Source: Phycisphaerae bacterium (lineage in GTDB: Bacteria; Planctomycetota; Phycisphaerae; SM23-33). Taken from it: DNA of 63,308 bases. Positions within the stretch are counted from its first letter, which is position 1, and each line of letters opens with the position of its first letter. The notes under the pieces are model-generated. The model saw nothing but the letters and a program-made list of their open reading frames with translations, did no database searches and was not told the DNA's origin. Made by a program: the position numbers and the translations under genes. The DNA lies in NCBI GenBank assembly GCA_011050235.1, contig DRGC01000093.1, forward strand, positions 1-63,308, given 5' to 3'. Shown here in pieces: positions 8,111 through 42,607 of the stretch.

Positions 8111-9085
8111 CTACATGCGGGCCCGTTCGAAGTCGATCACTTGCCGCAACGTTTCTTCGAGCGTGACGGTCGGCTTGTAGCCGATCAGGCGGTTGACTTT
8201 TTCCAGCGACGGCACGCGCGTGAGCATGTCGTCGAACGGCCGGCCGTAGGCCTCTTCGTAGGATAGCCTGCGCGTGTCGGACTTGGAGCCCGTCATGTCG
8301 ATGATCTTGTTGGCGAGCTCTTCGATCGTCACCGACTCGTCCGTGCCGACGTTGACGACCTTCCCCTCGGCGGCGTCACACGCCATCAGCTTGACGATCG
8401 CGCCGACCACGTCGGAGACGTTGCAGAAACAGCGGCTCTGCTTGCCCGTGCCATAGATCTCGATCGGCTCGCCGCGCAGGGCCCGGCGGACAAACCGCGG
8501 GACCACCATGCCGTACTGGCCGGTCTGGCGCGGGCCCACGGTGTTGAAGAACCGGCAGATCACCGTCGGCAGGCGGTACTGGTCGTGGTAGGCCAGCGCC
8601 AGGAACTCGTCCACCATCTTGCTGCAGGCGTAGCTCCATCGGGTGAAGTGCGTCGGGCCGAGCGTGACATCGTCGTCCTCGACGAACGGCACCTTGGTGT
8701 TCTTGCCGTAGACCTCGCTCGTCGAGGCGACCAGGATCTTCCGGCGAAACTTGTTCGCCAGGTTCAGCATCACCTCCGAGCCGTGAATATTGGTCTCGAT
8801 GGTGTGCACCGGGCGGTCCACGATCAGTTGCACGCCGACCGCAGCCGCCAGGTGGTAGATCATGTCGCAACGGTCGACCAGCGACGTCATGGTCATCTCG
8901 TTGCGAACCGATTCGCGAATGAACTCGACCGAGGGATGCTTCAGCAGGTCCGCGATGTTGTCCAGCGAGCCGGTGGACAGATCGTCCACCAGCACCACGC
9001 CGTGCCCGTCGGCGACCAGGCGATCGGCCAGGTGCGAGCCGATGAACCCCGCCCCGCCGGTGATCAGAATATTGTGTTTATCCAC
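8111..9085 (-). CDS. NAD-dependent epimerase/dehydratase (UDP-glucuronate decarboxylase/GDP-mannose dehydratase-like)
   Basis: A 324-residue extended SDR. It has ITGGAGFIGSHLADRL at the N-terminus, catalytic STSEVYGKN and YACSKMVDEF, and RFFNTVGPRQTGQYGMVVP, a pattern common in nucleotide-sugar decarboxylases and dehydratases. The start is set at the GTG at 9085, which has GGAG just upstream and begins immediately before the Rossmann strand (DKHNILITGGAG); a longer frame exists but adds 13 residues without homology. It is the first gene of a two-gene epimerase operon. Confidence 0.88.
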   Translation of the reverse strand: MDKHNILITGGAGFIGSHLADRLVADGHGVVLVDDLSTGSLDNIADLLKHPSVEFIRESVRNEMTMTSLVDRCDMIYHLAAAVGVQLIVDRPVHTIETNIHGSEVMLNLANKFRRKILVASTSEVYGKNTKVPFVEDDDVTLGPTHFTRWSYACSKMVDEFLALAYHDQYRLPTVICRFFNTVGPRQTGQYGMVVPRFVRRALRGEPIEIYGTGKQSRCFCNVSDVVGAIVKLMACDAAEGKVVNVGTDESVTIEELANKIIDMTGSKSDTRRLSYEEAYGRPFDDMLTRVPSLEKVNRLIGYKPTVTLEETLRQVIDFERARM

Positions 9086-9261
9086 GGTATCTCCGCGCAC
9101 GTATGCAGTCGGGGGACTATACACGCCAGCGCCGACCCGAGCAAGCCGTTACGCACGCGGGATGCCTCCCGGGAAACCCCGGGCGTGACCTTTCCACGAT
9201 CACCGATGGCGAGTAGAATGGATTTGACCGCGACACACAGTAAGCCATAGAAGGGCCCGTC

Positions 9262-13433: not shown

Positions 13434-14132
13434 TTACTGTTCCTTCTGTTGCAGATTGGGTGCGAACTTGGCGTGCATGTCGCGTAGGCTCGCGGCGTCG
13501 ACGTCGCTTAAGTTGTTGATCAAGTAATGCGCGTGGGCCAGCAGTTCCGGATGGCCCATGCCGAGGGCGACGAATCCGCCATCGAGCGCCGCCGTGATGC
13601 CGGCCGCCGCGTCTTCGACCACGATGCACTCATCCGGTTGGACGGAAACCATCTTGGCCCCGGTCCAGAAGACATCCGGGTGGGGCTTGCCGCGCTCATA
13701 CGAATGGCCGTCGGCAATGGCGGCAAACCGCTCGAAGACGCCCACCGCCCGCAGGACGACCTCGGCATTCTTGCTGGCTGAGCACAGGACGATCTTGATG
13801 CCCGCCCGATCGAGATCATCGAACAGCTCGACCACGCCCGGCAGCAGGTCGGCCGGGGTCAGATGCTGGATCATCTCCAGATAGCGGCCGTTCTTGCGGG
13901 CCGCCAGATCCACCAGTTCCTCCTGCGTGTAGCGGGAGACACTCTCTCCGAGAGCGATCTTCAGCGACTCCATGCGGCTGATGCCGCGCACCTGGTCCTT
14001 GATGTCGGCCGGCGGCTCGGCGCCGACGCTTCGGGCGATCTCCGCCCACGCGTCCGAGTGCAACTGTGACGTATCCACCAGCACGCCGTCCAGGTCGAAC
14101 AGCACCGCCTTGAGTTGCGGGTTCTTCGCCAT
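13434..14132 (-). CDS. pgmB: Beta-phosphoglucomutase (HAD superfamily)
   Basis: A 232-residue HAD hydrolase fold converting beta-glucose-1-phosphate to glucose-6-phosphate. It has the nucleophile motif FDLDGVLVDT, the cap-domain start LHSDAW and RGISRMESL, motif II CSASKNA, and KPHPDVFWTGA plus VVEDAAAGI. The ATG at 14132 has GGAGAGG upstream. The stop lies 2 nt before the GH65 start, so the two are co-translated and together make a disaccharide phosphorolysis route. Upstream is a palindrome-rich gap and then divergent ilvC. Confidence 0.93.
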   Translation of the reverse strand: MAKNPQLKAVLFDLDGVLVDTSQLHSDAWAEIARSVGAEPPADIKDQVRGISRMESLKIALGESVSRYTQEELVDLAARKNGRYLEMIQHLTPADLLPGVVELFDDLDRAGIKIVLCSASKNAEVVLRAVGVFERFAAIADGHSYERGKPHPDVFWTGAKMVSVQPDECIVVEDAAAGITAALDGGFVALGMGHPELLAHAHYLINNLSDVDAASLRDMHAKFAPNLQQKEQ

Positions 14133-14209
14133 ATTCAGTGCCTCTCCTTCACATCGAGCAAGAACCGCACACGATATCGCATGCAGATGACGAGTCAAGC
14201 GCCATCGCT

Positions 14210-14382
14210 CAGCCCCAAAGGGGCGAAATGTACCAGCCCAGGGCGCCGCCCGCAGGGCAAGCCCTGGGAACGCGGCCGCAGCGCAATCTGAGCCCTGAAG
14301 GGGCGAAATGACTGGGGGGACGTCATTGCGCCCCTTCAGGGCTTCTTCCTTCTGGCCCCCCTAACCCAGCCCGTTGGGCTGG
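14210..14382. repeat. Palindromic intergenic repeat cluster between pgmB and ilvC
   Basis: The gap 14133-14501 has no gene. It holds AGCCCCAAAGGGGCGAAATG at 14210-14229, a hairpin around CCCAGGG/CCCTGGG (14237-14268), a 21-bp inverted pair with one mismatch starting GCCCTGAAGGGGCG (14292-14312 with 14322-14342), and CCAGCCC/GGGCTGG (14366-14382). The motif GGGGCGAAATG occurs twice. This looks like a compound REP/MITE-like element without a transposase. The ilvC promoter follows. Confidence 0.8.
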
Positions 14383-14428
14383 GCTGATACATGTGAGCCC
14401 TTCAGGCTCCCGGTTTCCGGCGCGGCCC

Positions 14429-14457
14429 TTGACGGTCTCCACTCCCTGACATACAAA
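14429..14457 (+). promoter_or_regulatory. Sigma70-type promoter of ilvC
   Basis: TTGACG at 14429-14434, 17-bp spacer, TACAAA at 14452-14457. A leader of roughly 38 nt would follow, with AGGAG just before the ATG at 14502. No attenuator or leader peptide is visible. Confidence 0.5.
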
Positions 14458-14501
14458 GCCCTCCTGGACAATTCGCAAACCACCTATGACAGGAGACGAT
14501 C

Positions 14502-19480: not shown

Positions 19481-19503
19481 AGCGGCGGGCACAATTGCGT
19501 ATC

Positions 19504-19651
19504 GCGCGGCGTCCCGATGTACATCGGGACGCCAACCGACGCTATGCGGCGCCACGCTGCCACTTGGCTTCGACGAGATCACTCGAGTCGTGGGAGCGTG
19601 CCTTATCGCATCGGCATCTGCCGCCCGCACGCTTCTGTAAGCAGAAGCGTG
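19504..19651. repeat. Cluster of three palindromes between convergent genes
   Basis: GGCGTCCCGATG followed by TACATCGGGACGCC (19508-19533) is a perfect palindrome and the second copy of the element at 16111. Next is a long imperfect hairpin built on CACGCT and AGCGTG (about 19552-19602). Last is CACGCTTCTG-TAAG-CAGAAGCGTG (19628-19651), a perfect 10-bp stem. The 262-bp gap between the LysE and lyase-like genes has no gene otherwise. Confidence 0.75.
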
Positions 19652-19712
19652 GCACCCGAGACGTTGTCTTTGTGAAGGATAAGCCGAAGATGAAAAGCGT
19701 AGCCCAGCCCCC

Positions 19713-19740
19713 GGTTCCCGGTTCCTGGTTCCCGGCTCCC
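19713..19740. repeat. Heptamer array at the end of the PL22-like gene (locus F)
   Basis: Four direct units, GGTTCCC, GGTTCCT, GGTTCCC, GGCTCCC. The array ends two bases before the TAA of the minus-strand gene at 19743. No inverted partner arm is visible. Confidence 0.8.
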
Positions 19741-19742
19741 AC

Positions 19743-30199: not shown

Positions 30200-30260
30200 G
30201 CCGCTCCGAACATTCTTAGCGCCAGACGGCACTGGTGTTGTGTGATTTCATGGACGATGG

Positions 30261-30289
30261 CCCGGGCACGGACGTCCGGGTTTTTTTTT
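30261..30289 (+). terminator. Rho-independent terminator after dnaA
   Basis: CCCGG (30261-30265) pairs with CCGGG (30276-30280) and nine T's follow (30281-30289). It lies 62 nt after the dnaA stop. It is one of the few classical T-tailed terminators in the window. Confidence 0.7.
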
Positions 30290-40713: not shown

Positions 40714-41000
40714 ACGCCCCGCCCTTAAGACGGCCCTTTGTCTTGTCGATGAAATTTACAGCGTCGCATGCGCCTTTCCATCGGCGCGCATGCGCGGCAG
40801 GGATGCACGCTAGGGCGGGGGATAACGGCCTCTTGGGCCGTCATCACGGCAGGAAGCCCACAGTGAACAACCGAGAATCCTTCGGGCCGCGCTGGAGGGC
40901 GTGCTGGCGGCCCGAGCAACCGCCTGCGGTGCAGCGGACACCCGACTTCGGTCGGGACCCGGTATCGCGGCGGATACCGGTCGGGTGATCCATTTTTAGG
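40714..41000 (+). ncRNA. Candidate structured RNA of unknown family (strand assumed)
   Basis: The 435-bp gap between uvrD and the next gene is unusually foldable. A 9-bp long-range pair CCCCGCCCT/AGGGCGGGG (40717-40725 with 40812-40820) encloses AAGAC/GTCTT (40727-40744) and the 8-bp GCATGCGC/GCGCATGC (40766-40793). Then come ACGGCC/GGCCGT (40825-40841), CGGGCCGC/GCGGCCCG (40883-40914), CCCGAC-TTCG-GTCGGG (40941-40956) and CCGGTATC/GATACCGG (40959-40980), and ATTTTTA at 40992. I find no RNase P, tmRNA, 6S or SRP signature and no protein on either strand that looks real. It may be a novel RNA, a riboswitch leader or a repeat cluster. Confidence 0.35.
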
Positions 41001-41059
41001 GTCGCCCGGCCTTTCTTTTGTCTGCGCCGCCGGCGCTGTTGCCGGCGATGCGGGCGGTG

Positions 41060-41065
41060 TATAAT
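41060..41065 (+). promoter_or_regulatory. -10 element before the frameshifted small gene
   Basis: Perfect TATAAT; weak -35 (TGTTGC, 17 bp upstream). It ends 32 nt before ATG 41098, which has AAGGGC upstream. It may serve the small gene and the DUF2059 gene. Confidence 0.4.
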
Positions 41066-41097
41066 CCCACCGATCCGATAGATACAAGGGCACGACC

Positions 41098-41290
41098 ATG
41101 ACCGATGGTGCCAAAGAGCTTCGCAACGTCATCGCGTTCGCAGCCGCCGATGGGCAACTCAGCAGCCGGCGCGTTGGGCAAGATCACGGGCGACGCGTTC
41201 ACGCCCGACGACGCCGGCGTCGAAGCCGCCCGCACCTGGTGGGCTTCCGGCGGACCGAAACGAGACCCATACGACAAACTGGCCCTGTGA
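41098..41290 (+). pseudogene. Small conserved-looking gene split by a +1 frameshift
   Basis: Reading from ATG 41098 gives MTDGAKELRNVIAFAAADG and then loses sense; the neighbouring frame gives AGALGKITGDAFTPDDAGVE and runs to TGA at 41288-41290. Joined near CAGCAGCC (41158-41165) by dropping one base, the product is a 63-residue protein ending RDPYDKLAL. Both halves have protein-like composition and sit behind a TATAAT box and a ribosome binding site. I do not recognise the family. A sequencing error, a real mutation or programmed frameshifting could explain it. Confidence 0.5.
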
Positions 41291-41338: not shown

Positions 41339-41839
41339 ATGGTGAACAAGAAACTGCTGTTGGTGGTGCTGCTGTGCGGGTCGGTCGCTATTGGCGCGGC
41401 GGCGATATCGGTGGCCGTCGCCCAGGAAGATGCCGGCGACAGCTCGAGCACAATCGACGAGGCGCTGCGGGCGGACATTCTGAAAATGCTGAAACTCACC
41501 GGCTCCGACAAACTTGGCGAGCAGGTCTTCAAGCAGATGATGGCCTCCCTCAAGCCGCTTGCGCCAAATGTGCCTGAGGAATTCTGGACACTACTCGGAC
41601 AGGAGTTCGACATGAGCGGGATGATCGATCTCCTGATCCCCGTGTATGCCAAGCATTTGACCCACGAGGACGTCCAGGCCATCATCGTCTTCTACGAGAC
41701 GCCGGCCGGTAGGAACCTGATCGCTGCCCAGCCGAAAATTGTTGCCGACTCCATGGTCATTGGCCAACGCTGGGGCCAGGAAATCGCCCAAAAGGTTATG
41801 GCCCGCCTCCAGGAGTACCAACAGGCCGAGCAGGAATAG
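41339..41839 (+). CDS. DUF2059 domain-containing exported protein
   Basis: A 166-residue protein with a signal peptide (residues 1-28, ending near SVAVAQ). The mature part has the DUF2059 pattern: LLIPVYAKHLTHEDVQAIIV followed by FYETPAGRNLIAAQPKIV. Function of the family is unknown; it is found in the periplasm of many proteobacteria and planctomycetes. AGAAGGAG stands before the ATG. It follows the frameshifted small gene by 48 bp. Confidence 0.85.
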   Translation: MVNKKLLLVVLLCGSVAIGAAAISVAVAQEDAGDSSSTIDEALRADILKMLKLTGSDKLGEQVFKQMMASLKPLAPNVPEEFWTLLGQEFDMSGMIDLLIPVYAKHLTHEDVQAIIVFYETPAGRNLIAAQPKIVADSMVIGQRWGQEIAQKVMARLQEYQQAEQE

Positions 41840-41896: not shown

Positions 41897-42607
41897 ATGG
41901 GCAACGGATTGCCGACACCTGCGCCCCATATTGGGACGCTCAACGAAAAGCCGCTCCACGCAGCGTTGAAGGAGGCCTACGCCCAGCCGGGGGACCGGTT
42001 CGAGGTCGAGGTGGACGGGTTCTGCATCGACCTAGTGCGCGGGGATCTGCTGGTGGAGTTTCAGACGGGCAACTTCTCGGCGCTGAAACGCAAACTGTCG
42101 GCCCTGACGGCCGGCCATCACGTCCGGCTGGTCTACCCCATCGCCGCAGCCAAGTGGATCGTCAAGCTCGACCGGCGTCGCGCGCGCGTTGTCTCGCGCA
42201 GAAAATCACCGAAGCGCGGCTGCGTCGACGACATCTTCGAGGAATTGGTCTCCCTGCCGGCCCTGCTGGCTGAGGAAAACTTCTCGCTGGAGGTGCTGAT
42301 GATCCACGAGGAGGAGGTCCGCCGCCAGGATCGCCGTAAACGGCGGCGCGGCGGCTGGCGGACGGCCGAGCGGCGGCTGCTGGAGGTGGTCGACCGCTGG
42401 GTGTTCCAGACCCCCGCCGACCTGGCCGACCTCCTGCCGCCCGACCTGCCCGACCCGTTCACCACCGCCGACATCGCGGCCGCCCTGGCCAAGCCCCGGT
42501 CGCTGGCGCAGAAGATGGCTTACTGCCTCCGCGAGGCGGGCGCGATCGCGACCGACGGCAAGCGCGGGCGCGCCATTCTCTACCGCCGCATCACTGAAGC
42601 GGCTTGA
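41897..42607 (+). CDS. Putative PD-(D/E)XK nuclease-like protein with winged helix
   Basis: A 236-residue protein. N-terminal GTLNEKPLHAALKEAYAQPG and DRFEVEVDGFCIDLVRGDLL, then VEFQTGNFSALKRKL, look like a nuclease core in which D, E and Q take the places of the PD-(D/E)XK metal and catalytic residues. The C-terminal part (residues 160-236) is helical and ends in a winged-helix-like segment, LAQKMAYCLREAGAIATDGK. I recall related conserved hypothetical proteins but no tested function. The end overlaps the convergent DUF1015 gene by 17 bp. Confidence 0.6.
   Translation: MGNGLPTPAPHIGTLNEKPLHAALKEAYAQPGDRFEVEVDGFCIDLVRGDLLVEFQTGNFSALKRKLSALTAGHHVRLVYPIAAAKWIVKLDRRRARVVSRRKSPKRGCVDDIFEELVSLPALLAEENFSLEVLMIHEEEVRRQDRRKRRRGGWRTAERRLLEVVDRWVFQTPADLADLLPPDLPDPFTTADIAAALAKPRSLAQKMAYCLREAGAIATDGKRGRAILYRRITEAA

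Follow-up and report, generated by a model that had tools for sequence, protein, structure and literature searches.

The gap upstream of uvrD on contig DRGC01000093.1 of a Phycisphaerae bacterium (the window, the whole 63,308-nt stretch that was analysed) folds densely and contains no obvious gene. This raises the question of whether it encodes an RNA of its own, serves the small gene at 41098 as a leader, or is spacer DNA. The preliminary description of positions 40714–41000 listed specific helices, all of which are present in the sequence: a 9-bp long-range pair CCCCGCCCT/AGGGCGGGG (40717–40725 with 40812–40820), two perfect 8-bp stems, GCATGCGC/GCGCATGC (40766–40773 with 40786–40793) and CCGGTATC/GATACCGG (40959–40966 with 40973–40980), and a UUCG-capped 6-bp stem, CCCGAC-TTCG-GTCGGG (40941–40956). 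These helices are partly incompatible, and the minimum-energy fold swaps the 8-bp stem at 40959–40980 for a longer hairpin (about 40920–40973) and a terminator.

In this fold, the plus strand begins with a 5′ domain (40717–40820), which is closed by the long-range pair, encloses the GCATGCGC stem and may in part precede the start of the transcript. It is followed by a long core hairpin (40832–40916), whose competitor is a local hairpin at 40821–40845, and a second core hairpin (40920–40973), which holds the UUCG-capped stem. The last element is a predicted intrinsic terminator (40979–41020 with its T-tract), and both it and the fold are real as sequence features.

The terminator hairpin (40979–41011) is made up of a 13-bp stem without a mismatch (G-U pairs allowed) and the loop ATTTTTA, with TTTCTTTT immediately 3′ of it; the stretch directly following the hairpin reads TTTCTTTTGT, with the T-tract TTTCTTTTG. 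It thus combines a stable GC-rich stem with a T-tract directly after it, the sequence hallmark of intrinsic (Rho-independent) terminators. The hairpin and T-tract are the longest such combination in the window and its strongest intrinsic terminator. When the whole window was dinucleotide-shuffled 200 times and searched with the same criteria, the longest stem was 10 bp, and stricter criteria leave one other terminator in the real window, a 9-bp stem at 30259–30282 behind a dnaA-like gene. The preliminary description did not notice the terminator, which makes the case for a discrete plus-strand transcript stronger. The folding region that it delimited is real, but it stops at 41000, partway through the 13-bp stem.

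On the plus strand, 40714–41000 has a minimum free energy of −139.8 kcal/mol, where shuffled versions average −122.0 (z −3.4, none of 200 as good), a value to be read with the fact that the region was picked by scanning 63 kb; the minus strand has z −1.7. The interval that includes the terminator, 40714–41020, reaches z −4.6 on the plus strand versus −2.3 on the minus strand. A fold stabler than that of shuffled sequence, together with such strand asymmetry, is the pattern looked for in structured RNAs. As a background, the genes of the window were called by codon usage and 11 of its larger intergenic gaps were folded. The best of 150 sub-windows from these gaps (200 nt, both strands) is 40842–41041 on the plus strand, with z −6.0, and 90 coding sub-windows that served as controls have a mean z of −0.34 (sd 0.96, minimum −3.0). 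In a coarse-step scan of the whole window, other windows beat the region and some coding windows fold equally well, so folding alone is not decisive. The stablest fold in that scan (8701–8900, minus strand, z −6.4 from few shuffles) lies within the predicted coding sequence of a sugar-nucleotide epimerase-like gene (8111–9124). The gap at 19481–19742 has strong folds on either strand (z about −4), suggestive of an inverted repeat.

In the gap beside uvrD, the terminator supplies a large part of the folding signal, and the z value drops once it is removed. Intervals without it give z of −2.8 (40714–40976), −3.0 (40762–40976), −3.2 (40827–40976) and −3.9 (40833–40976), and 40827–41013, which includes it, gives −4.8. 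The 5′ domain by itself (40714–40826) has z −2.8. The fold of the region minus its terminator is therefore moderately unusual.

The ATG frame at 40749–40988 (79 aa) has a codon log-odds score of −0.40, compared with +0.44 ± 0.14 for the real genes of the window and −0.55 ± 0.44 for out-of-frame readings, and no frame of the region has a match in Pfam; the codon scores obtained for uvrD and for '41105b' came from a wrong frame and are left out. Rfam 15, the search that the preliminary description had proposed, contains no family that reaches the gathering score in the region, and the best permissive match (E = 1.3) is at chance level. RNase P (216.9 bits), tmRNA (162 bits) and SRP RNA (54.4 bits) each exceed the cut-off on further contigs of this genome. 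Also elsewhere in the genome is a 6S match (G000:C48:14610–14766, 38.2 bits, E 5e-6), which is below the Rfam cut-off, probably represents 6S RNA and has a T-run directly behind its closing stem. With these RNAs located elsewhere, the region is not a missing housekeeping RNA. The earlier view of the gap as foldable above chance, free of a plausible protein and distinct from RNase P, tmRNA, 6S RNA, SRP RNA and the common riboswitches is thus borne out.

Where a transcript could begin is less clear than where it could end. Promoter candidates were scored by consensus match only and ranked within the window, and for a plus-strand RNA this scoring yields weak candidates, the best of which, TTAAGA-19-TGAAAT (40725–40755, boxes at 40725 and 40750), ranks 72. 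On the minus strand, the candidate uvrD promoter TGGAAA-16-TAAATT (40753–40780, −10 at 40758–40753) ranks 11 and overlaps the plus-strand candidate, with the two −10-like boxes sharing the AT-rich spot GATGAAATTTACAG. This arrangement resembles prokaryotic bidirectional promoters, in which pseudo-symmetrical sequences drive divergent transcription (PMC12825309), but unlike those promoters, both sites here are consensus matches only and the plus-strand box is weak. The RNase P and tmRNA genes of the same genome have clear TATAAT boxes; that no clear one is seen here makes strong expression of such an RNA less likely. With a start near 40760, the 9-bp long-range pair would fall outside the RNA because its 5′ arm (40717–40725) is upstream of that start. 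The uvrD gene itself may begin at GTG 40638–40636 (minus strand), behind GAGGAG, rather than at ATG 40662–40660, as homology to relatives begins around there.

The best plus-strand promoter-like site of the region, TTGCCG-15-TATAAT (41039–41065, −10 at 41060, rank 11), is found beyond the terminator and would belong to the downstream gene or genes. Several intact TerB-family relatives have a −10-like box (e.g. TACAAT, TAGAAT) shortly upstream of their start, which supports the site at 41060 as a probable promoter. The small gene at 41098 (41098–41290, plus strand) lies outside the putative RNA and is what remains of a TerB-family gene after an internal deletion, with its reading frame broken. 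Its first ~24 codons correspond to the beginning, and its last ~44 to the end, of a ~260–320-aa protein found in relatives; about 200 codons are missing and the two remaining parts are in different frames. One intact relative belongs to the TerB family (PF05099, E 2.5e-14), and several genomes of the order have intact proteins of this TerB plus HEAT-like type. Since its neighbour is a decayed gene, the gap is in part a scar of gene loss. The next gene, at 41339–41839 (plus strand), encodes an intact DUF2059 protein and has its own Shine-Dalgarno sequence. Among the 38 genomes searched in the order, just one besides this has relatives of this protein, in two copies, and none was found in viral contigs. 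An RNA that stops at 41011 and an mRNA that begins near 41072 would be distinct transcripts.

No homologue of the element was found in the sets searched. Comparison by blastn with the family (35 genomes) and the class (397 genomes) returned the region itself and short matches of about 16–61 nt, many of which fall on GCGCTGGAGGGCGTGCTGGCGG, a stretch resembling high-GC coding sequence. Within the family, the top match (L002) sits inside a 590-aa open reading frame and has an unremarkable fold (z 0.1). In the order (38 genomes) and the class (397 genomes), a covariance model of the core, built from the sequence of the region alone, recovered the region itself and weak matches only. The best other match of the model (27.7 bits, in genome G006) is located at the end of a 251-aa open reading frame, and the next three (L089–L091) were judged by eye to be coding from their sequence. 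L002 and L088, the two best matches compared with open reading frames, are both in coding sequence. Gene order upstream of uvrD is not conserved among 29 relatives and shows no counterpart of the gap, nor was a counterpart seen upstream of the intact TerB-family gene in eight relatives. One viral contig (L172) shares an exact 20-nt stretch with the region, which there is within an open reading frame and has flanks without similarity, a second search with a 22-nt pattern gave no matches, and distant blastn against phages and plasmids gave none either. The nearest UvrD relative in the contig search is about 63% identical, which indicates that the searched set contains no congeneric genome.

The reading that we favour, to which we give about an even chance, is a lineage-specific, plus-strand non-coding transcript of ~180–260 nt that diverges from uvrD and has its own terminator at the end. 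Transcription would start before the core hairpins, plausibly near 40760 in the AT-rich spot shared with the candidate uvrD promoter. The transcript would then pass through the two stable hairpins and end at 40979–41011, and the terminator would separate it from the next promoter, the TATAAT at 41060. This reading is favoured by several computed features: a 13-bp terminator with a T-tract that has no equal in 200 shuffled windows, the best folding score of 11 gaps, on the plus strand, a codon score typical of non-coding sequence with no Pfam match, and a separate −10 box past the terminator able to serve the next gene. The 6S-like RNA of the same genome, which also ends in a T-run after its closing stem, points the same way. 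The absence of a convincing plus-strand promoter and of a homologue, together with the moderate fold that is left without the terminator, argues against it. Transcription, its start and any role of the RNA are inferred from these features; the RNA could be a trans-acting small RNA or a by-product of divergent transcription at uvrD. A bolder version, in which a new structured regulatory RNA of ~250–300 nt diverges from uvrD through a shared promoter region, is perhaps co-regulated with it and is confined to one genus of uncultured Phycisphaerae, seems unlikely to us.

The main rival accepts the terminator as real but treats it as an insulator only, which would halt stray plus-strand transcription, either divergent or read-through, before it reaches the promoter at 41060; the rest of the gap would be GC-rich spacer that folds well by chance. 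The large share of the folding signal that is due to the terminator, the lack of a good plus-strand promoter, the lack of detected conservation and the decaying neighbourhood, with a deleted TerB-family gene adjoining, are all consistent with it. The terminator-free stretch 40833–40976 is harder to reconcile with chance folding, as its z of −3.9 is still past all 90 coding controls, although these differ from it in length. We regard the insulator as possible yet rather doubtful.

The preliminary description had also suggested that the gap could act as leader to the small gene at 41098, and in its broader form this would make it a 5′ leader whose terminator, working like a riboswitch or an attenuator, controls the TerB remnant and the DUF2059 gene. 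A pairing switch of the required kind is predicted. As in terminator/antiterminator attenuators, a segment, here CACCCGAC (40939–40946), can pair either in its own hairpin, the UUCG-capped one, or with the terminator's 5′ arm, GTCGGGTG (40980–40987), and the alternative pairing has a probability of about 0.5–0.6 while the terminator is incomplete. Unlike in attenuators, the terminator is strongly favoured, with the alternative about 17 kcal/mol worse once the terminator is complete. An attenuator also sits in the 5′ UTR of the gene that it regulates, and here a strong −10 box, similar to those of several intact TerB-family relatives, lies behind the terminator and probably gives the next gene a promoter of its own. 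Given in addition that Rfam has no riboswitch family match here and that the gene at 41098 is a deleted remnant, the leader proposal is improbable and, for that gene, not supported. Least probable by far is an mRNA of a 79-aa protein running from ATG 40749 to a stop at 40988. Its frame does stay open into the terminator stem, but it scores like non-coding sequence, has no Pfam match, lacks a Shine-Dalgarno sequence before the ATG and has no relative that was seen.

The favoured plus-strand transcript would most resemble intergenic bacterial small RNAs with Rho-independent terminators, which likewise lie between genes in their own orientation, lack a coding signal and consist of compact hairpins followed by a terminator. 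It differs from them in that no clear promoter or homologue was found and in that it is known from sequence alone. Nothing places the element outside known kinds. If transcribed, it would be another orphan small RNA in a phylum with few mapped small RNAs; a literature search on such transcriptomes listed no study devoted to planctomycetes. It is chiefly of use as a clean candidate for RNA-seq, with a 3′ end that can be predicted.

RNA matches occur elsewhere in the window. Rfam assigns 14211–14268 (minus strand) to Acido-Lenti-1 RNA with 42.8 bits, above the gathering score. This match lies in the gap at 13630–14501 upstream of an ilvC-like gene, which also folds strongly on the plus strand (14230–14429, z −4.8). 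A tRNA-Ser (gga) called by ARAGORN at 42348–42424 (plus strand) is within the predicted coding sequence 41897–42607 and is probably a false positive.
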